From positions 84,430 through 148,429 of the forward strand of contig NZ_JABBFW010000014.1 in assembly GCF_012927045.1 (NCBI RefSeq): 64,000 nucleotides of DNA. The letters are read 5' to 3'. The DNA is from Azohydromonas caseinilytica (lineage in GTDB: Bacteria > Pseudomonadota > Gammaproteobacteria > Burkholderiales > Burkholderiaceae_C). Position 1 is the stretch's first letter, and every line of letters begins with the position of its first letter. The notes under the pieces are model-generated. The model was not told the origin of the DNA. It searched no databases and saw nothing but the letters and a program-made list of their open reading frames with translations. Positions 10,133 through 36,574 of the stretch are shown in pieces. The translations under genes and the position numbers were made by a program.

Positions 10133-10349
10133 ATGCTCCTTGTTACATCAGCCGGCAGAACAACAACGCCAAGCAGACAGACGGTGTGCAGCGGTGGAGT
10201 CGAAGCCACACCCAGAATCCGCTGCGTGCCCTGAGCCGCCTGCCGTCCAAATCAAGAGCGGATGTTCACCCGTGCCCGAAAATTAACCCACGGCAAGTTT
10301 TGTTTTATGAAAACATTCCTTTTGACAATTGCAGCTTGTCAATTGGTTT

Positions 10350-13300
10350 TTACCATCTGCCCGCCCGCTTCTCTTCGTCTTTCAACGATTCCCTAGTTCT
10401 GCTCTGGATTGCCTCGTCAATTATGTGTTGTGCCCAAACTCTCACTCTTTCGTGATCATGATCAAGGAGGGGCGTTACCACACTGATAAGCCGATCGTAG
10501 AATGGAACGAGTGAACCGGACCAAAAGAACGTATGCAAGTTTGCGCCGAGAGAATCCAAAACGCCATCAACATTCGAATAATCATTAATCAGCATCATGG
10601 CTGCTACTGACAAATGCCATACATCAGCCTCATCCTTTTCGATGGCCTTGACAATGCGTGCAATTAACGTAGGAGCGAGAGCCAGGTCATCGTTGCACCA
10701 TTCCTTTAAAAAACGCAAATCCAAGTTGTCGATGGCACCTGACTTGTCTCCCCCCGCTCTCCGAGCACGCAGCGCCTCGCCAAGCTTCCACCTAGCAATG
10801 TTGCCACTCTGAGTGAGAGCCTGCCTAACAATGGGCCATGAGACCTCGGGCTGTTGCTCGAAGAGGGAACGAAATAGCTTCTCCACGAGATGATCAGAGA
10901 TACGAGTTTCACCCGTAACCGAAAGACAGAGCTCTTGGGTCAAGACCTGTGCAATCTCAGCCGATTGTGGTATTAGCCGACTGGCTGCAACCTCAAACTC
11001 ATGCGCATCGCGCTGTGCTCGGCCTGATGAGAGCATTCCTCTCGTAGAGAGAATTGCGCTGAAATCTGGGTGAAGTGCCTCAACAGTTTCTGGCTGTCCG
11101 TGGCTATAAATAAAAAGAATGTCTAGAGCGATCCAAGCTCCATCAATACCCTTCTGCAAGAGTGCCCGGTTTAGCTTAGAAATCTGCTCAACAGATACCC
11201 CTGCCATCGCTTGCCCATTTGAGAGGCCGTACAGCAGATTCACCTCTATGTGACCAGCTTCAACAAGGCCTTGCAGTACAGCTGTGCGATTATTGTTAAG
11301 TCCCACACCACGAGCAATGCTTGGCAGCGATTGTCGCAGAGCAGGACTCTCTGCGAGTGCAGTGAACAATGCATCGCATGAAGTTGCGTCATGTTCAGCA
11401 ACCACTGATAGCCAGCCACTGAGAAGTGCGCTATTTCGACGTTCAAATGGGATGTCGGTGAGTCGCGAAAGAATGACCGCATAAAGCGCCTGCGCCATAC
11501 GGCTACCGCGTGCTAAGCCCTGACCGAAAGCGTATGCCTGCCGTTGCTCGCCCTGTAGGACGAGGTCTAGGTGCGAGACGACTGTTTCCCAGTTACGTCC
11601 AAAGTCTTGCCCAAGTGCTTCAGCCTCTCTTGCGGCAACATCAATCCAGCTACCGTCACTACTTTCAGTATGCTCAAAAGGCGGCTCTGTTATTAAAAGC
11701 TTAAGCCGCTGAGGAATATCTGCCGGAGCTAATATTTGGAGCCAAGATTGCACCCGTGGCTCCGTTCCTACCGGTGTCCCATCCAAATCATACTTAAGTA
11801 CATCCTTGACAGCATCTACCGCTTGGACCCAAACCTTACCTTGGGCGCGAAGATCACTAATGACGTCACCGAGGGCCCATTCGACATCATCTAGCCGTCC
11901 ATGCTGAACAAGCCCTCTAATGTGTGCAGCGATGATCGCTACAGCGTGTTCGCCGATGTCACCGGGCTCTTTTGCTAGCCGAACTAGTTCCTCAAGGCAA
12001 TTTCTCCAGTATTCAAAAATTTCCTTCCATGTTTTCGGCCGGTACTGTGGCAGCGGACCAGAACTACCTTGATACTCCGGGCCCGACATACCGGAAAAGT
12101 TATCTGTAGTTAAGGCCTTGTCAAGCGCCAAGATTGCAATGCGCCTAGCGTCAATTTCCTCATTGCGCCCCATCTGGCGCAGTAAGGGGAATCGTAGATC
12201 GAGAGGAACCTGCGTCCCGGAGAGCAACACCATGAAAAGCCGGGTCAAGACCCCTGTGGCATTATTCGACCAAGTTTCGTTCTCGGCACAAGCAAGTTTG
12301 AATAAGAACCGGGCTGCTCGCGGAAAGCTTACCTCCCGAAATGCAAGCTTCTCTAAGGCCCATACAAGGTTCCGTCTGGGAGTGCCTGATAAGGTCCGAA
12401 GGTCGTCTGTTTTCCAATCGCCAAAGGCGTAATCAAGTGCTGCGACGGCATGCACCGGGTTCACTTCAGCGATCGCGCGAAAGAGCTGCGAACCCAGATC
12501 AGAACTGAGCACTTTCGCTTGGCCAAAAGGGCCTGTCCTCCCACAAAGCTTCTCGGTTAAGCCTGATAGGGCCGGAACGAAGTCGAGCATTCGGATTCGT
12601 TCACAGAACGCATCAGCGAGTGCTGGAGGAAATGGGAGTGCGACAATCTCAGCAGCGCGCTCTGGAGGGCATTTTTCCCACCAGTCTGCGGCTAGGCGGA
12701 TAGCGAGTGGCCTAGGGCGAACCTGGATCAAACGCCCGTATTTTGTGACTGCTCCACTTTTCTGAAATTCGACAAGCTCGGCATAGAAGTCATCCGTCGA
12801 TACTTCTGGACAAAAAATAGATCGGACGAATTCCCTTTCTGGTGTGGTGTCGCCATCAAATCCTATGTTTTCGAATAGCGCGCAGGCTGCTATTACCTTG
12901 GCCGCACGTGACGCCACCTCGACATGTCTTCCAAGGAGCTTTGCTAAAACTTGCGGCGTAAGACGTGCTGATAGTGGGGCTTTATCTGCTCGAGCTTCAG
13001 CGGTCCGAATTGCCATCAACGGGTACCCCTGCGCTAGTTCGTTAGCGATGAAACGCCGATCGTCCGGTGTGAGATCTTTGAAAGCAATATCAAGCAGGCC
13101 TTGTATCAAATCCGTACTTGCCGGTTCAAGACGTACCAACCTTGTCGGAGTGCCAGCGTACGCAGACGAATCGAGATCATTTCCGATGGTAATTAATGCT
13201 AAGCGACTATCGGCGCGACGAGCTTCTTCAGCGAGGAATTCGTGCAATTCCAGCGGGCAGTCATCGACCACGATTGTGCCAATGCAGTTTACGCGTCGCC

Positions 13301-14153
13301 AAGCACGCACTATCCCTTCAATGTCACTTGTTCGTGCTGCATTCAGGTAGCAGAACCGGCTTGAAAGCCTGGCCTGTTCTGGGTTAGCCGCTGGATCAGT
13401 CGGTGGACGGAATGCTTCAAAGACGAGCCTACTTTTGCCTAAGCCCGACGCGCCAGTAAGGCGAGTGATGCTCCGCTCTTCTGTTGCCGCCACCCGAAGA
13501 GACTTAACAATTTCGACTCGCGCTTTTTCTGCATCAGCAAAAGGAACTTCGAACGACGGGTATCCAGATAACTCAGACCAAGTGAGCGCCCCGGCGCCCG
13601 GTTTGCCCAAATACTCAAATACGGCGGCAACTGCTGCCGGATATGTATTAACCCAACCCGCTATGTCTGTTGCGTCATAGATGTAGACGTCACCGGGCGT
13701 AAGCTTTTCTCCTTCGGCAACTTCAGAAGCGCTTGTAATGGCTTCTTTGAGAGCAGTTATGCGAGGATCTTTTGATTGGCCTACGCAGTCTCGGCCCAAA
13801 AACAAAACATAAGCACCTCCGCACTCGACTAGTTTTCGGACCTGTGGCTTTAAGGTTCCATCCTTATTTCGGACCTCAGACGAGCATGCCGCCTCACTCA
13901 TGTCCGTGGCTTTTGCTTGAAAGCCGACTATTCGGCCCGGTAACATGGTAGTTTTATCCGGTCCGTCAGTCCAGCGCGCTAAACCGTCAATGCCACCGTC
14001 CTTGATGTATATGGAAAGTGGAACTTGGCTGTCATATTTTTCAATACGATTCGCCGAGAGTTCTAAGTTAACAAGCCGCCATAGCAACTCCACGAGTTGG
14101 CTGTCCTTGAGAAGTTTGATGTCGTCGTTTGTTGTTTGTAGTGGCGAAGGCAC
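10350..14153 (-). CDS. Predicted defence protein: PD-(D/E)XK nuclease + STAND NTPase + long sensor region (Avs-like)
   Basis: A 1267-residue protein. Residues about 20-120 look like a restriction-type nuclease: GGIDG (Asp56) and then GFQAKA (Gln79, Lys81), the D...QxK signature of Mrr-like PD-(D/E)XK enzymes. Residues about 205-340 hold a P-loop with Walker A GASGLGKS (234-241) and Walker B IGTIVVDDCP (Asp297/298), as in STAND NTPases. The remaining 900 residues look helical, without known repeats. Effector, NTPase and long C-terminal sensor is the order found in Avs antiphage proteins, which recognise phage proteins, assemble, and cut DNA; assignment here is by architecture only. GTG start after AAAGGAG at six bases. 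Codon use is more AT-rich than in flanking genes, which suggests transfer. It is a single-gene unit near other defence genes. Confidence 0.72.
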   Translation of the reverse strand: MPSPLQTTNDDIKLLKDSQLVELLWRLVNLELSANRIEKYDSQVPLSIYIKDGGIDGLARWTDGPDKTTMLPGRIVGFQAKATDMSEAACSSEVRNKDGTLKPQVRKLVECGGAYVLFLGRDCVGQSKDPRITALKEAITSASEVAEGEKLTPGDVYIYDATDIAGWVNTYPAAVAAVFEYLGKPGAGALTWSELSGYPSFEVPFADAEKARVEIVKSLRVAATEERSITRLTGASGLGKSRLVFEAFRPPTDPAANPEQARLSSRFCYLNAARTSDIEGIVRAWRRVNCIGTIVVDDCPLELHEFLAEEARRADSRLALITIGNDLDSSAYAGTPTRLVRLEPASTDLIQGLLDIAFKDLTPDDRRFIANELAQGYPLMAIRTAEARADKAPLSARLTPQVLAKLLGRHVEVASRAAKVIAACALFENIGFDGDTTPEREFVRSIFCPEVSTDDFYAELVEFQKSGAVTKYGRLIQVRPRPLAIRLAADWWEKCPPERAAEIVALPFPPALADAFCERIRMLDFVPALSGLTEKLCGRTGPFGQAKVLSSDLGSQLFRAIAEVNPVHAVAALDYAFGDWKTDDLRTLSGTPRRNLVWALEKLAFREVSFPRAARFLFKLACAENETWSNNATGVLTRLFMVLLSGTQVPLDLRFPLLRQMGRNEEIDARRIAILALDKALTTDNFSGMSGPEYQGSSGPLPQYRPKTWKEIFEYWRNCLEELVRLAKEPGDIGEHAVAIIAAHIRGLVQHGRLDDVEWALGDVISDLRAQGKVWVQAVDAVKDVLKYDLDGTPVGTEPRVQSWLQILAPADIPQRLKLLITEPPFEHTESSDGSWIDVAAREAEALGQDFGRNWETVVSHLDLVLQGEQRQAYAFGQGLARGSRMAQALYAVILSRLTDIPFERRNSALLSGWLSVVAEHDATSCDALFTALAESPALRQSLPSIARGVGLNNNRTAVLQGLVEAGHIEVNLLYGLSNGQAMAGVSVEQISKLNRALLQKGIDGAWIALDILFIYSHGQPETVEALHPDFSAILSTRGMLSSGRAQRDAHEFEVAASRLIPQSAEIAQVLTQELCLSVTGETRISDHLVEKLFRSLFEQQPEVSWPIVRQALTQSGNIARWKLGEALRARRAGGDKSGAIDNLDLRFLKEWCNDDLALAPTLIARIVKAIEKDEADVWHLSVAAMMLINDYSNVDGVLDSLGANLHTFFWSGSLVPFYDRLISVVTPLLDHDHERVRVWAQHIIDEAIQSRTRESLKDEEKRAGRW

Positions 14154-14668
14154 GCTTGTCTCCTTTCCTTGACTTGGTTTTTACTTGCTGGCTTGTCCTG
14201 AAACCGCAGGAGTTAGCGGTTGTGATAAAGGCTGGCTTGGCTTAGCTGTCTGGTTTGCCATAATAGCCGGATGTGACCGGCCATGGGTGGGGCGGCGGTT
14301 CCAGGCTGCGCGCTTTCATACGCCATGCACTGGATGAATTCGCGACGGCTTACTTGAAATCCCGGCTCTCGGTTTCCATCGTCCCAGTAGCGGCATAAGT
14401 TCTTACAGCCGCCGGGCGATGAGGTACCGCACTTACCCTTCGCGCTACCACACGCTGTAGACGGCCAGCAGCCCGGAGTGCGGCTGTCACTTTCCGCCGT
14501 ATAGGCGCCACGGCGTTTTCGGCGTCATGGAGCCACGCGGTTTCCGCCGTAATGGAGCCACTTCGTTTTCGGCATATAGGAGCCACCCAGGGCTGACGGG
14601 CACCTCGATCTGAGCCCGGCCGCGTCGGTGCTGAAGTGCGTGCCATCCAGGCAAGCACGGAGGCAGCG

Positions 14669-17586: not shown

Positions 17587-18303
17587 TCATCTCGCACGCA
17601 ATTTATCTTTCTGATAGGTGTATATGGGGAGAATGGAGTCATAAAGCTGAAAAAGCTTTTCCTCAATATTGCCTAAATATATGCCAAGTTCTTCCCTTTT
17701 TGTTTCTAAGTAAGATTTTTTTATAATTCTCAATTCCTCCGGCTTTATGAATGAACCTTTGCCAACTTCTTTCGATAGGCGATCTGCACTGATGATCAAA
17801 TTTAGTTTATCAAGCTGGTCTTCAGAGTGGCGACCATGGTGTATCACGGTATTCCTGATTAATCTATATCCATTGCAGGCCTTGTTGATATTCTTGAGCT
17901 TTTCGTCCAATTTAAACTTTTTTACATGCTCATTCGTAACCATAATGTTGTGGCTTATGGATTCGTTGCTAATACCTAGATCGAGTATTCTATTGACAAA
18001 AATCAGAGTCCTGTCATAAATTGACTGGACTCTTATAATGCAATTTTCAACAAGCATTTCTATGTATGCCTCATCTGATTGACCTGTCTCGCTAAATAAT
18101 TCTACGTGGCTCACGTCTAGGAGCGACAGAGAAAGCTTTGTTTTCTCTGTCGACGATATAATAGTTGTCAGCGCCTTTGCGCAAGAAATTATGTAAAGAT
18201 CTAGGTCGCTTTTTAGTTTTGGATGGACACCTCCATTGCTAGTTTCTGCCGACAATAGTGGACTTTCTTTGTCCAGAAGAATTTCAGTTTCAATTTTGTG
18301 CAT
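17587..18303 (-). CDS. HEPN-domain protein (possible RNase, Cthe_2314-like)
   Basis: A 238-residue, mostly helical protein with the motif RNTVIH (Arg150, His155), which fits the Rx4-6H active site of HEPN RNases; the context YRLIRNTVIHHGRHS is typical. HEPN proteins serve as toxins and abortive-infection effectors, cutting RNA (known for the superfamily). The codons are strikingly AT-rich against the GC-rich surroundings, a sign of transfer. The start chosen is the ATG at 18303 after CGAGAA; the frame reaches 18396. There is no small partner gene (MNT-type antitoxin) on either side: an IS5-family element and IS/dnaE2 debris flank it. Whether it is a toxin, a lone defence gene or something else is open. 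Confidence 0.6.
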   Translation of the reverse strand: MHKIETEILLDKESPLLSAETSNGGVHPKLKSDLDLYIISCAKALTTIISSTEKTKLSLSLLDVSHVELFSETGQSDEAYIEMLVENCIIRVQSIYDRTLIFVNRILDLGISNESISHNIMVTNEHVKKFKLDEKLKNINKACNGYRLIRNTVIHHGRHSEDQLDKLNLIISADRLSKEVGKGSFIKPEELRIIKKSYLETKREELGIYLGNIEEKLFQLYDSILPIYTYQKDKLRAR

Positions 18304-18525
18304 GTATTTCTCGGTAAATATTGCGTCAATTCGACTTGGAAGCCTTGGGAACGTTCCCTCACTTCCGCCAACCGGCCAAGCCAGCTTGCCTCGCACGAGA
18401 ACGTCGACTGTCCTCGTGATGAAAGAAGCCCACCCACATCAAGCGCCAATGAAGCGCTGCAGCTGGCGGCGCCATTGGCCGAGCCAATCTGTCAGCAGCA
18501 AGGCGGTATCGTCGAACCTGCCTTA

Positions 18526-21111: not shown

Positions 21112-22272
21112 TCAGCCTTGCTCAGATCTGGGGGGCTGTTCCGCAGGTTCGGCAGTAACGGCCGGCGCTTCAATTGCAGCGGGTTCACTTATTACTTCCA
21201 AGTCGGCAGTTGGTTCTGGTAATTCAGCCGTTCCCGCTGCTGCAGCTGCAGTTTGGGCCTCTATGTCCGCAAAGAAGGCCATCACGCGGTCTCGGAGCGG
21301 AGCGTTCTGCTCGATGCGGGTGACGTAGTAAAGCAGCGCTTCGACGGCCACGCGTTGCTTAAGCGCGTCCCAGAGCCGCACGTGGCTCTGCATATCGGAC
21401 CGCGATAGCGGCTCCAGCCCCATAGATTTCAAAGCCGTCCTAGCGGTAGGCGTAAAGTCCAAGGCAACCACTAGGCCAAGCGCTCCCTCATTCGCCACCT
21501 GTGTGGCGAAATCTTCAAAATCCGGCACTTCATCTTCCTTGATGATGTACTGCTTGACCTCAGCGGAAATCACCAACTGTTGGCCGTTAAGTGCATCGAT
21601 GTCGCCGATGCGCCCCTCGCGCTTGCCTGCACTGCGTACCCGGGCAGTTTCAATCTGCAGGTGTGCGGCGTCGGCGCGGATATAGCCGAAAACTGTGCCT
21701 TGATATGCTGCGCCGCTTTTCTCACCACGGTGGCGGCTAGTAGATAAATCAAAATTTTGAAGAAATAATGAGAAACGCAGTGGTTCTCTGCGTAGCGCAG
21801 AAGTATCGCGAACGTGTGCGGGTAGTTGCTCTAAAACGAAAGCTTTGACGCGTTGTTCCAACGTATCTAGACTTTCATCAGTCATTGGCAGAAAACTTTC
21901 CAACCAATGCTGATAGTCACCCCAAGCTTGCGTAGCATGAGGCGCTGCCTTTGGGTAATCCAGCCGCTTATTGTCAATGCGAAGCCACCGAACGAAAGCC
22001 TCGTAGTACGGGCGAATACTTTGCGTTCGGTTCTCGCCTGGTATGGAAATGATGAGCGTATTAGCCCGACCCCCATCAGCGGTGACCGTCTGGCGCGGAT
22101 ATGCAGCGTAGAACTCGGCCATTGATGAAAAGCGGCCGTCGTGGCCGCGAACGCCACGAACGAGGTTCATCATCGCAATGAGAAGGCCTGGCAGGAAACG
22201 CCGTCGTCGCCGACTGTTGGTTTCTAGAAAGCTGTTTCTTACTTCTTCAAAAATCTCGTCGGCGGTGGACAC
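21112..22272 (-). CDS. Predicted type II restriction endonuclease
   Basis: A 386-residue protein directly behind a DNA methyltransferase gene (11-base gap, same strand). Residues about 220-242 read RIGDIDALNGQQLVISAEVK: Asp224 or Asp226, then Glu238-Val-Lys240, the D...ExK signature of PD-(D/E)XK restriction enzymes. The last 70 residues are an Ala/Pro/Glu-rich tail that looks disordered. The start is GTG at 22272 with a weak ribosome site. The specificity cannot be told from the sequence. The pairing with the methyltransferase is the main argument for the function. Confidence 0.72.
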   Translation of the reverse strand: MSTADEIFEEVRNSFLETNSRRRRRFLPGLLIAMMNLVRGVRGHDGRFSSMAEFYAAYPRQTVTADGGRANTLIISIPGENRTQSIRPYYEAFVRWLRIDNKRLDYPKAAPHATQAWGDYQHWLESFLPMTDESLDTLEQRVKAFVLEQLPAHVRDTSALRREPLRFSLFLQNFDLSTSRHRGEKSGAAYQGTVFGYIRADAAHLQIETARVRSAGKREGRIGDIDALNGQQLVISAEVKQYIIKEDEVPDFEDFATQVANEGALGLVVALDFTPTARTALKSMGLEPLSRSDMQSHVRLWDALKQRVAVEALLYYVTRIEQNAPLRDRVMAFFADIEAQTAAAAAGTAELPEPTADLEVISEPAAIEAPAVTAEPAEQPPRSEQG

Positions 22273-22283
22273 GTTGCTTTTTA

Positions 22284-23336
22284 TTAGGTGCTGATTTTGA
22301 TCTGCGACAGCCTGGGAATGGCTTGGTGGGCCATGGTTAAGTACTGTACGTCGCGCTCGGTTCCGATAGCGGAAAGGCCGAGGTTAGCAGCCGCTGCAAG
22401 CGTTGAGCCGCTGCCACAAAACGGGTCATAGACAACACCACGGGATAGCGGCAAAACGCCACGGACGATGTAGCGCATCAATTTCTGTGGCTTGAGCGAA
22501 GGATGCGGGGCTAAGTCACGCTCTGGGGAGCGTGCTGGTGCAGCCTCAAAAATGTCGCGGAAGGGCTCATCGTCAGAGATACGGCGAAAGCCACCCGTGC
22601 CCCATTTGCGCAGGTTCTGGGCTACGGTTTTTTCGGAAATGGGCTTGCGGAACAGTCCCCAAGGCTCCCAACTGGAGCGAGGCATGACCGAAACGTCGGA
22701 AAACTCGGTTTCAGCGCCTTTGGGGCGGTCACCACCGCGCAGTGTCTTGACGATACGGATCAGTTCGCCGCGCTTCTCCATGCCTGAGGTTTCACAGGCA
22801 TAGAACACTGTCGTTGAAAGCAGCGGGTTGGCAGCAATAACTAAGTGACCGCCAGGCACCAAAATGCGCTGAGTTTGGTACGCAAACGCCTTGAAAAAGG
22901 TGTTTAGCTTCTCGCGTTCCTTGGGCGTGAGGACAGTAAAGCGAGGCAGTGGGCTACGCTGGGAGCCGTCGAACGAGGGCGGGATACGCCAGAGGCCACC
23001 TTGACCCTGGCGCATCTTGTCGTGGTCTTTGTCCTCGTACTCGACCAGGGCATACGGAGGGTCGGTGACGATGGCGTGCACGGAGTTTTCGTCGCGCTGA
23101 GCCATCCACTGGAGCGCGTCAGCAAGCACTAGCTCGATCCCCGGGAGGGGATGCAAGTGCGGGAACTCTACGGGCTCGACTGCTGGAGCCGTGACGACTG
23201 GCTCAGCAGCGCCAGCGACCTGTCGGGGAGCTTTTAGGGTTTTGGGGGACTGCATTGTGGGCGGCATTATTACGTTTTGACCTTCAAGGAGAGCGCCGAT
23301 AAACACGCAGATCAGTGCGTCATCGGCGGATTGCAT
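22284..23336 (-). CDS. DNA methyltransferase of a type II restriction-modification system (beta-class layout)
   Basis: A 350-residue enzyme. The catalytic motif IV is TDPPYALVEY (DPPY at 92-95), and the SAM-binding motif I comes later, VVYDPFCGSGSTLAAAANLG, followed by IGTERD. Catalytic motif before SAM motif is the beta-class order; DPPY indicates methylation of the amino group of adenine or cytosine (N6A or N4C). Between them lies a long target-recognition part. ATG at 23336; ATGs at 23267 and 23255 are alternative starts, since the first 25 residues look unlike the family. Together with the downstream nuclease it forms an R-M pair, and expression of the methylase first is sensible. Confidence 0.88.
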   Translation of the reverse strand: MQSADDALICVFIGALLEGQNVIMPPTMQSPKTLKAPRQVAGAAEPVVTAPAVEPVEFPHLHPLPGIELVLADALQWMAQRDENSVHAIVTDPPYALVEYEDKDHDKMRQGQGGLWRIPPSFDGSQRSPLPRFTVLTPKEREKLNTFFKAFAYQTQRILVPGGHLVIAANPLLSTTVFYACETSGMEKRGELIRIVKTLRGGDRPKGAETEFSDVSVMPRSSWEPWGLFRKPISEKTVAQNLRKWGTGGFRRISDDEPFRDIFEAAPARSPERDLAPHPSLKPQKLMRYIVRGVLPLSRGVVYDPFCGSGSTLAAAANLGLSAIGTERDVQYLTMAHQAIPRLSQIKIST

Positions 23337-33426: not shown

Positions 33427-34155
33427 CTATTTCGTCAGCCAATCCGCATATGCATTCACGTCGATCATCGGGACCGTGCCGCTGAACTGCAGCATCGAAA
33501 TCAACTTGAAGAGAAACGCGGTCGCAGGTTTGCCCTCGCGCGTGAATTCGTACTTGCTATTCGCGGCCTCCCAAACAAAGTGTCCGTGCGCAGCCACGCA
33601 CCCAATGTCCAAGCGGTCCACTTCAACGTTGCCGTCACCTAACGCCTTCCACAACGCGTCGCCGCAGCAAGGCGTCCAATCGCTCTCAAACGTCAGGATA
33701 CCGCCCAGGATAGGGATCAGCGGCTTTGGTGGGTAGATTCCCTTTGCATACGGTATCGGAAGGCTCGTGCGGTGCAGCCTCCGCACCGTCGCTACCTTTT
33801 GCCGCGCATACGTTACATGCTGCGCGTTGATGGTCTGCTTCGCCTCGAAAACCGCGTAGACACTCTCCGCCGGGACAATCGTCTGCCCCTCGTACTGGAA
33901 AATGAACGGCGAATACTGCCTGTCGTAGACCACGACATCGATCTGCTCGCTGAAGGTGCCCTTGCTATCGACCACGAATGCTTTGTCAGCCCGGTAGCGT
34001 TCGGGAAGATACTTGGCAAGCATCTCGAGCCAGACAGCCTCGCTCGCGTCCCCCTTCGTCCCAGGATGGGCAAATGACTTGCGCGCAATATGCAGCCGGT
34101 GCTGAATGTCGTCATGCAGATTGGCCAGCAGAACTGGCAGTGACCAGCCGCTCAT
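33427..34155 (-). CDS. nucC: CBASS effector endonuclease NucC
   Basis: A 242-residue restriction-fold nuclease. The active site reads SEQIDVVVYD (Asp73) and YAVFEAKQ (Glu104, Lys106); these positions are the same as I recall for E. coli MS115-1 NucC, and the sequence around YDRQYSPFIFQYE and SVRRLHRTSLPIP-like RRLHRTSLPIPYAKG fits that family along its length. NucC trimers bind cyclic tri-AMP, join as hexamers and cut double-stranded DNA, destroying the chromosome of the infected cell (known for the family). It is the last gene of the operon; its ATG overlaps the TRIP13 stop by four bases. Confidence 0.95.
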   Translation of the reverse strand: MSGWSLPVLLANLHDDIQHRLHIARKSFAHPGTKGDASEAVWLEMLAKYLPERYRADKAFVVDSKGTFSEQIDVVVYDRQYSPFIFQYEGQTIVPAESVYAVFEAKQTINAQHVTYARQKVATVRRLHRTSLPIPYAKGIYPPKPLIPILGGILTFESDWTPCCGDALWKALGDGNVEVDRLDIGCVAAHGHFVWEAANSKYEFTREGKPATAFLFKLISMLQFSGTVPMIDVNAYADWLTK

Positions 34156-35078
34156 GGCCTATGCTCCTCGAACGGCGGTGTTGGATGCATATGCTGTGCG
34201 ATCTCCAACGCCCGTGCGGAGTCAATCCCACGCGCGGGATATGCATCAAGGACGATGGCCGGAAGAAGGCGCTGCGTCAAATCGGAGAACGTGAACCCGT
34301 GGTTGCGGGCAGCTGTATTGCCGGTCGCGGCAGCCAGGGCATCGATGTCCGGACCGGATAAGAGGCTGCTGAGCCACTTGTCCAACAGATGGCGACGCTG
34401 CTCTCGAGTTGGACGGCCGAAGTGCATGACGTCAGCCGCGCGCCGACGCACCGCCGGATCTAGCGCGGTGAGTCGGTTCGTGCACATGATGACGGCCGCA
34501 GGAAGGCGGCCGTTGGCCATTCGATCGATGCCACGGATGAACGCGTTGACGCCTGCACGGTCCTCGTGATGCATCTGCTGCGTCTCGCGAGATTGCGCCA
34601 GCGCATCAGCTTCGTCCACCAGCAAGATGACGCCGCCACGTGCTGCCCCGCTCGTCGACTTGTACTTGGCCGCCTGCGCGCAGGCATGCTCAAAGGCCGA
34701 ACTGATCAGCTGCGTCATCTCACCCACACGCCCTTGGCCGCGCGAAGACAGGCTCAGCGGCAGCAGCGTGATGTCGATGTCCTCTTGCCTGGCCACCAAA
34801 TCACCAACGGTTTCGGCCAGTTCAGTCTTGCCGGAACCGACATCCCCAGCCAGCACCACCAGCGGCGGCCGACGCAGGACCACATCGACCAGCGCGGTCG
34901 CGCGGTGCTGATTGGCCCACTTCTGCAGCCCTGTCGGGTTGATCAGTACACCCAGCATGTTGGCCAAGCGCTTGATCTTGTCATCCATACCGACCAAACG
35001 TTCCAGACGCATGCGCGCGTCAGGGTCGGGGAGCATGGCCGGGCGCTCGAAAAGTCCCTGGGTTTGCGCGTGAGTCAT
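34152..35078 (-). CDS. cap6: TRIP13-like AAA+ ATPase of type III CBASS (Cap6)
   Basis: A 308-residue AAA+ protein. Walker A is LAGDVGSGKTELAETVG (GDVGSGKT at 78-85), Walker B is GVILLVDEADALAQS (Asp155, Glu156), and the sensor/arginine-finger part is VIMCTNRLTALDPAVRRRA. In type III CBASS the TRIP13-like protein disassembles the HORMA-CD-NTase complex and so limits signalling (known). It overlaps the HORMA gene upstream and nucC downstream by four bases each, so it lies in one coupled transcript. Confidence 0.94.
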   Translation of the reverse strand: MTHAQTQGLFERPAMLPDPDARMRLERLVGMDDKIKRLANMLGVLINPTGLQKWANQHRATALVDVVLRRPPLVVLAGDVGSGKTELAETVGDLVARQEDIDITLLPLSLSSRGQGRVGEMTQLISSAFEHACAQAAKYKSTSGAARGGVILLVDEADALAQSRETQQMHHEDRAGVNAFIRGIDRMANGRLPAAVIMCTNRLTALDPAVRRRAADVMHFGRPTREQRRHLLDKWLSSLLSGPDIDALAAATGNTAARNHGFTFSDLTQRLLPAIVLDAYPARGIDSARALEIAQHMHPTPPFEEHRP

Positions 35079-35596
35079 CCGTAACTCCTGACGCTGTCGC
35101 GGCCAAGAGAACGGCCGCCAGAGCTGTAAGTTCTATCAGTCACAAAGTAGCCGTTCACGTTCGGTGCCTGCGCACCGGTGCGTTGCACGGCCAAGCTTTC
35201 TTTGAAATCCGCCTGCTGCTGGCTGTTCAGGCTGTCCCACTTCGCGCTGTAAGTGAGGTAGCTATAGAAGCTAGCGCCCGCTACATCAGCCCCGGGCCGC
35301 ACCTTGCCAGGGTCGTCGTCTGCAGCATCGACGCCAGCAGCGAGATCTTGCGCCGTGTACCTCAACGTCGGCTCTATCCACTGGTCGTTGCGCTTGAAGC
35401 CATACATCACCGTACCCAGGTAACCGCAACGCAGGAGTTCAACGACCTCAGATTCGTAGCTGTCGATGTCCGCATCGCTGGGTTTGTCGTAAAGCCGCTG
35501 CATGCGTTTAAGGTCGGTCTTAACCTTGGCGGCAAGGTGACGCGCATGCACAACGGTAAAGGTTGCGGCCTCCGTGGCCGTGAAGCTGTAGCTCAT
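35075..35596 (-). CDS. cap7: Bacterial HORMA-domain protein of type III CBASS (Cap7)
   Basis: A 173-residue HORMA protein: MSYSFTATEAATFTVVHARH, then AAKVKTDLKRMQRLYDKPSD, and the YLTYSAKWDSL strand region. The C-terminal tail (VTDRTYSSGGRSLGRDSVRS) is the mobile seat-belt part. HORMA proteins sense a peptide, presumably from the phage, close around it and switch on the CD-NTase (known). There is one HORMA gene here, as in the E. coli MS115-1 system; some relatives have two. It starts 12 bases after the CD-NTase gene. Confidence 0.92.
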   Translation of the reverse strand: MSYSFTATEAATFTVVHARHLAAKVKTDLKRMQRLYDKPSDADIDSYESEVVELLRCGYLGTVMYGFKRNDQWIEPTLRYTAQDLAAGVDAADDDPGKVRPGADVAGASFYSYLTYSAKWDSLNSQQQADFKESLAVQRTGAQAPNVNGYFVTDRTYSSGGRSLGRDSVRSYG

Positions 35597-35608
35597 CTGC
35601 TTGACTCC

Positions 35609-36574
35609 TCAGCCTTGGAAGGTCGAGCCGAGAACCTTTTGCCAATACCGCACGGTCAGTTCCTTGGTGGGCGCCGACAGTGCTGCGTCGATAGCGTCGC
35701 CCGCATCCAGCGCAGCATCGACAATGGCGTCGGCCTGCTCGGCCGTGTATAGCTTGGCAACGTTGTTGGTGGGATTGATCGGATCGAAGATCTGAACAAC
35801 GTCGAAACACTTGCCGACGTCGGAGACGGGATAGTGGTCGGTGAAGACGATGCGCTGACGCAGGTTCGAACGAGCGATGTAGGTGAAAAACGCCTGCATT
35901 GCGTCGGGGTAGTCCGACAAGTCCTGGCCCTGGTCTGTCAAGTGCGCGAGGATGAGCTCGACCATGAAGGACTTGAAGCGAAAGCCCTCGCGCTCTTGCT
36001 TCATTCGGCGCGCCCAGAACTTCAGCAGGCGCGCAACCTGGGCAAAGTGAGTCTCCTGAGCGCGCTTGCGCTTGCGGATGAACTCCAGATGCAACGGGAT
36101 GCTGGTCTCTAGAAAAGAGCCGTCCTCTTGGCTGACGAGGTTGCCTCGCCACGCAGAATCACCGGCATACAGCACCGGCACGACGTCGACGTCCAGCCCG
36201 GTACCCTTGAAGGATACGGTGACGGAGTATGTCTGCGGCTTGACTTGGTCCGGCGAAAAGTTGGGGAATGCCTTGCGCAACCGCTCGGCCAAGTATTCCA
36301 GCAACTGCTTGACGTCATGCGGCGCGTCTGAGCCGCTGATGTACACGGCCACGTCGATGTCGTTGAGCGTGCGCAGAGCTGTGCCCTTGGCCAAGCTACC
36401 CGACAACATCATCCTGCGCAGCGTGAAGTTGGGGTGCTCGTCCAGATAGGTTTCAAGCTTCTCGCGTAGGCGTCTGGCCTGCGCTCGGTATTCGTCAGCC
36501 TTGTCACGCGGAAGATTCACCCGTTCTTCGGCGAACCGGGCGATGGCACGGTGATCGACATGGGCCCTGCTCAT
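35609..36574 (-). CDS. cdnC: CD-NTase (cGAS/DncV-like nucleotidyltransferase) of type III CBASS, probable CdnC
   Basis: A 321-residue nucleotidyltransferase. The catalytic loop reads MLSGSLAKGTALRTLNDIDV (Gly59-Ser60, Asp72, Asp74), with a third acidic pair in GTGLDVDVVPV (Asp128/130). Helical C-terminal half with FWARRMKQEREGFRFKSFMV. The family makes cyclic oligonucleotides after infection; with NucC as the effector the product should be cyclic tri-AMP (inference). It is the first gene of the four-gene operon. The clade (C or D) is judged from the operon type and similarity to MS115-1 and needs a tree. ATG at 36574. Confidence 0.94.
   Translation of the reverse strand: MSRAHVDHRAIARFAEERVNLPRDKADEYRAQARRLREKLETYLDEHPNFTLRRMMLSGSLAKGTALRTLNDIDVAVYISGSDAPHDVKQLLEYLAERLRKAFPNFSPDQVKPQTYSVTVSFKGTGLDVDVVPVLYAGDSAWRGNLVSQEDGSFLETSIPLHLEFIRKRKRAQETHFAQVARLLKFWARRMKQEREGFRFKSFMVELILAHLTDQGQDLSDYPDAMQAFFTYIARSNLRQRIVFTDHYPVSDVGKCFDVVQIFDPINPTNNVAKLYTAEQADAIVDAALDAGDAIDAALSAPTKELTVRYWQKVLGSTFQG

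Follow-up and report, generated by a model that had tools for sequence, protein, structure and literature searches.

A divergent homologue of PD-lambda-4 component A in Azohydromonas caseinilytica with a predicted Avs- and NLR-like architecture

The PD systems come from a functional selection performed in Escherichia coli by Vassallo and co-workers in 2022 (PMC9519451). In the part of that paper used here, the naming rule implies lambda-vir as the phage used to select PD-lambda-4, and every selected PD system is stated to have been confirmed to lower plating; a search of the main text did not turn up PD-lambda-4 by name. The relevant portion of a review table files PD-lambda-4 under P-loop NTPases (PMC10952713). 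As described in the section used of a third article, STAND proteins have an effector, an NTPase and a sensor in common, and once Avs1-4 have recognised a phage protein (terminase, portal or another), they cleave the DNA of both phage and host (PMC12931631). Here we analyzed a stretch of 64,000 nucleotides from Azohydromonas caseinilytica (contig NZ_JABBFW010000014.1, positions 84,430 to 148,429), hereafter the window. One gene on its minus strand encodes a protein of 1267 amino acid residues whose sequence is homologous to PD-lambda-4 component A over the full length, though divergent.

Relationship to PD-lambda-4 component A

The gene occupies positions 10350..14153 of the window; all features of the protein given below lie on the same minus strand. 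Comparison with PADLOC models revealed a match to PD-Lambda-4_A (PDLC03991) with an E value of 2.1e-79, in which residues 8-1262 aligned with positions 7-1278 of the 1283 in the model. At E values up to 0.1, PADLOC returned PD-Lambda-4_A models exclusively and no named Avs family, as the original prediction, made from the sequence alone, had anticipated. The same prediction had proposed an undescribed defence gene. An undescribed family was ruled out because the PD-Lambda-4_A model matches the whole length of the protein. PD-lambda-4_A is already known as defence, and the 1267-residue protein is, on this comparison, a very divergent relative.

An E. coli reference was located with the DNA of an Enterobacter plasmid homologue as the query. 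Of 5426 E. coli genomes searched, 173 had matches to it with 60-80% identity, and no match covered more than 80% of the query. In one E. coli reference locus, component A (1283 residues, 2532 bits) is directly followed by component B (303 residues, 650 bits), and both genes are part of an element whose integrase lies at the transfer-messenger RNA (tmRNA) gene. The window protein showed 22% identity to E. coli A over 1045 columns (E 4e-35) and 18% in the multiple alignment. The two proteins have the nuclease signature, the Walker motifs and a near-equal length in common, whereas they differ by this low identity of 18-22%, by separate branches of the tree, and by the lack of B both beside the window gene and in its genome.

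The motifs were placed exactly as the original prediction had put them. The nuclease signature D52-GGIDG ... Q79-A-K81 (13911..14000) includes the GFQAKA stretch. Q79, K81 and Y115 were invariant in 103 aligned rows, and D52, G53, G54, D56 and E93 were conserved in at least 90% of them. Walker A, GASGLGKS (residues 234-241, including K240; 13431..13454), and Walker B, VVDDCP (residues 295-300; 13254..13271), were recognised in the sequence and the alignments; R231, G234, G237, G239, K240 and R242 did not vary among 41 rows whose N-termini are of different kinds. Because these key residues are invariant or conserved at 90% or more across aligned homologues, the motifs exceed chance. The open reading frame (ORF) begins with GTG, and a Shine-Dalgarno sequence, AAAGGAG, lies 6 nt 5' of it (14160..14166). 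Among its 11 nearest homologues (P0002-P0012), 8 are likewise 1267 residues long.

Predicted architecture and proposed mechanism

Structure models were made by folding two segments, residues 1-205 and 196-1267, separately. They predict the order nuclease, NLR/Apaf-type STAND NTPase with winged helix, and HEAT-like solenoid, in agreement with the effector, switch and sensor order proposed earlier. The predicted PD-(D/E)XK nuclease effector comprises residues 1-185 (13599..14153; mean predicted local distance difference test score, pLDDT, 83), and the predicted STAND NTPase with winged helix comprises residues 200-525 (12579..13556; pLDDT 92). Residues 526-1250 (10404..12578) form, in the models and by structural comparison, a predicted HEAT-like helical solenoid, the candidate sensor. 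The helical C-terminus of about 900 residues expected from the sequence was modelled at high confidence (mean pLDDT 92.3). Within the solenoid, residues 526-650 and 676-725 were more conserved than 876-1150, which might mark where a ligand binds or where a structural contact is made.

The original prediction could have failed if the N-terminus had no PD-(D/E)XK fold, and on this point the evidence was divided. A Foldseek search with the nuclease model gave no significant match (best E 0.35), which weighs against a nuclease head. On structural re-alignment, nuclease entries filled ranks 1-16 with the Avs4 N-terminus at the top, so that the fold was supported by the re-alignment and not by the search. 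In the nuclease model, strands were seen at residues 57-60 and 75-81; with Q79 and K81 invariant and D56 conserved at 90% or more, the protein shows the D ... (D/E/Q)xK signature of PD-(D/E)XK enzymes, conserved and located on the sheet at the core. The best Foldseek match of the remaining part of the protein was Avs3. Matches by sequence profile were few. Pfam gave for the whole protein a weak AAA_16 match alone (E 0.025, among matches up to E 1), which is also all that Pfam shows with regard to the NACHT domain of bNACHT proteins; NCBIfam had no family for it, and sequence searches of PDB found nothing relevant for the protein, a 29-row family profile or the TIR-like heads described below.

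Like Avs3 and Avs4, the protein thus has, according to its motifs and models, a nuclease, a STAND NTPase and a helical sensor in this order in one chain. It differs from them in that no Avs chain was among its PDB profile matches at E values up to 5, as no Avs model was among those of PADLOC, and in being shorter than the Avs chains compared (1534 and 2028 residues). The model of the NTPase and winged helix aligned with the plant and animal NLR/Apaf receptors NRC4, RPP1, CED-4 and Dark. These receptors have leucine-rich repeats or WD40 repeats where the window protein has a HEAT-like solenoid as its predicted sensor, and the nuclease head also sets it apart from them.

We consider it probable, by analogy with these proteins, that this gene acts alone and encodes an NLR-like anti-phage receptor belonging to the PD-lambda-4_A family. 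The C-terminal solenoid would recognise a phage protein, upon which the central STAND NTPase would bind ATP and oligomerise. The N-terminal nuclease would then be switched on and cut DNA, and the infected cell would stop, an abortive outcome. We infer ligand binding, oligomerisation, DNA cutting and the abortive outcome from Avs and NLR proteins. Since family members from many phyla retain the solenoid, our best guess for the trigger would be a phage protein that is both essential and conserved.

Interchangeable N-terminal heads on one core

We further examined 88 loci of the family, comprising 79 from genome contigs (from the best 80 of 147 relatives) and 9 from viral contigs. Nuclease heads were assigned in 55 of them (43 by pattern and 12 by eye), alpha/beta-hydrolase heads in 21 (18 by a GxSxGG pattern and 3 by eye) and TIR-like heads in 8, all by eye and all in Bacteroidota; 4 loci had no N-terminus. 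Both hydrolase heads scanned matched Pfam PGAP1 or Abhydrolase_6, one of them above the curated cut-off, and the hydrolase heads of L037, L062 and P0087 matched LmuA. CAP12-PCTIR_TIR (PF10137) was found in 6 of the 8 TIR-like N-termini (best E 1e-4), the one match shown in full lying below the curated cut-off. A PADLOC TIR effector model matched one of two TIR-like proteins scanned (E 8e-4), and Pfam returned nothing at E values up to 0.01 on three full-length TIR-like proteins. Domains resembling LmuA-type hydrolases and CAP12/Pycsar TIR effectors, the latter by weak matches, replace the nuclease in relatives, and neither is present in the window protein. Two nuclease-type members (L041 and P0099) carry an extra MqsA-antitoxin/helix-turn-helix domain ahead of the nuclease.

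An unrooted tree of the STAND-solenoid core was built from 101 rows (66 nuclease, 27 hydrolase and 8 TIR-like), namely 75 of the 88 loci, 23 of 116 homologues including the window protein, and three enterobacterial proteins. Broken or partial loci (L035, L054, L057, L064, L068, L077, L078, L082 and L085) and near copies (L088 and L092-L094) were omitted, and P0113 and P0115 were dropped, the core motif not being found in them. The head labels needed 5 changes on this tree compared to a mean of 31.4 for shuffled labels. A mixture-model tree of 66 rows, obtained by removing 35 rows with long branches or near relatives, again needed 5 changes, and a single clade for its 22 hydrolase rows was rejected by the approximately unbiased (AU) test (p 4.6e-6; the group was named after the first tree had been seen). 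A Lelliottia plasmid protein with a hydrolase head fell within the 8-row clade that contains E. coli PD-lambda-4_A, and in the 101-row tree a clade of 9 nuclease rows from five phyla sat among hydrolase rows. As the alignments and trees indicate, one shared STAND-solenoid core bears three predicted kinds of N-terminal enzyme, with at least 5 changes required.

The heads bear on an unlikely alternative in which the protein would be a direct-acting nuclease, sensing and cutting phage DNA or a replication intermediate alone while the cell survives. In that case the NTPase would control access to DNA instead of oligomerising to trigger cell death. The portion used of the selection paper gives direct immunity for 7 of the 11 DNase-containing systems (PMC9519451), and the lack of a methyltransferase or other recurrent partner among the neighbours also fits. 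However, hydrolase and TIR-like heads borne by the same core do not act on phage DNA, and the NTPase models as an NLR/Apaf-type STAND domain, not as a DNA translocase.

Partner genes, genomic setting and spread

Component B was found neither in the 64-kb window nor in the genome to which it belongs, nor among neighbouring ORFs of at least 70 residues in the 88 loci, some of which are short or cut. Nor did B occur in any of 369 genomes belonging to the class; A was present in 12 of these (E up to 1e-20), counting the genome that contains the window. No recurrent partner family was seen among neighbours in the 88 loci, and no methyltransferase recurred; beside the gene itself there is none, its flanks being an ACT-domain gene after it and IS21 before it. 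In E. coli GPEC389 and the Enterobacter plasmid, B was not seen beside A in the stretch examined. From the lack of B in the window, its genome, the 88 loci and the 369 genomes, and from these enterobacterial loci with A and without B, we infer that A is a self-sufficient unit. It is very unlikely that the protein is instead half of a two-component system whose other half, substituting for B, is unlinked or has escaped recognition; B directly behind A in the E. coli reference locus would suggest such a pair, but the same absences, the lack of a recurrent partner and the two enterobacterial loci argue against it. Among the enterobacterial loci L003, L005 and L006, B was not found beside A in two and was split into two ORFs in the third. 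An E. coli control genome matched B and not A.

Homology to two genomes of the same genus stops at 10230..10231, a point beyond the ACT-domain gene that lies about 120 bp from the receptor gene and marks the edge of a variable region. Comparison of the same spot in these genomes (L099 and L100) showed, in one, two low-GC genes matching HEC-06/Orf5/SspE models, that is, DUF262/SspE-like defence genes. The other has low-GC genes there, of which seven were scanned and one gave a weak match. A was sporadic, being present in 1 of 60 relatives, solely the window's own genome. The AT-richer codons noted in the original prediction were borne out by the GC content at third codon positions (GC3), which was 0.48 in the receptor gene, whereas seven window genes presumed to belong to the host or to IS elements had values of 0.78-0.93. 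The gene was likely acquired horizontally. It would be scarcely credible that the protein is a STAND regulator without a defence role and its nuclease signature a relic. Many STAND proteins are regulators, but Q79 and K81 are invariant in the 103 rows, the nuclease is exchanged with hydrolase and TIR-like heads, and this is a sporadic low-GC gene in a variable spot.

Plasmid records with a homologue numbered 42, of which 21 are conjugative, and 50,697 phage records gave no match. This distribution would suit a receptor that detects a protein of a plasmid or mobile element and kills or clears the cell, a reading that we regard as quite improbable: plasmid carriage shows the carrier, not the target, and the E. 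coli relative came from a selection for phage resistance according to the part used of its paper (PMC9519451).

The neighbouring CBASS, restriction-modification (R-M) and HEPN genes cited in support of a defence role were all located in the window. Beyond the receptor gene lie an IS21 pair and then a HEPN_Cthe2314 protein (17587-18396), followed by a type II R-M pair at 21112-23336 with its own restriction endonuclease (PADLOC). The cyclic-oligonucleotide-based anti-phage signalling system (CBASS) lies 19 kb on, at 33427-36574, with CD-NTase, HORMA, TRIP13 and a NucC effector in a row. GC3 was 0.70-0.78 in the CBASS genes, 0.55-0.65 in the R-M genes and 0.41 in the HEPN gene. The HEPN gene, between IS21 and a transposase remnant, had the lowest GC (0.40) of 15 window genes measured. 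Immediate neighbours of homologues (115 of 139 picked) matched 66 PADLOC families and farther genes (92 of 97) matched 43, at E values up to 1e-20. We claim no defence enrichment, because this comparison lacks per-gene counts, and genomic context alone proves little, since matches to PADLOC families were present next to homologues and also at a greater distance. A recombinase-ParB element common to the window and an E. coli locus was considered and dropped, as it consisted of two weak matches. The RNA fold 3' of the receptor gene was unremarkable (z -1.07), promoter-like sites were not in excess (3 found versus 2.8 expected), and 6 terminator-like sites were found versus 4.9 expected.

In the titles and abstract openings searched, mostly of papers outside subscription journals, PD-lambda-4_A was not described as Avs- or NLR-like or as having exchangeable heads. 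We tentatively propose, with confidence just short of even, that PD-lambda-4_A may be a separate NLR-like lineage of many bacterial and archaeal phyla beside Avs1-5. One conserved HEAT-solenoid sensor would read something common to all phage infections and would have acquired interchangeable killing heads several times, be it a nuclease, a hydrolase or a TIR domain, no partner being needed. The NLR-like placement of the main protein of PD-lambda-4 would give it a testable mechanism and predicts that A alone can suffice. The head swaps on one sensor may provide a natural set for asking what bacterial sensors see.
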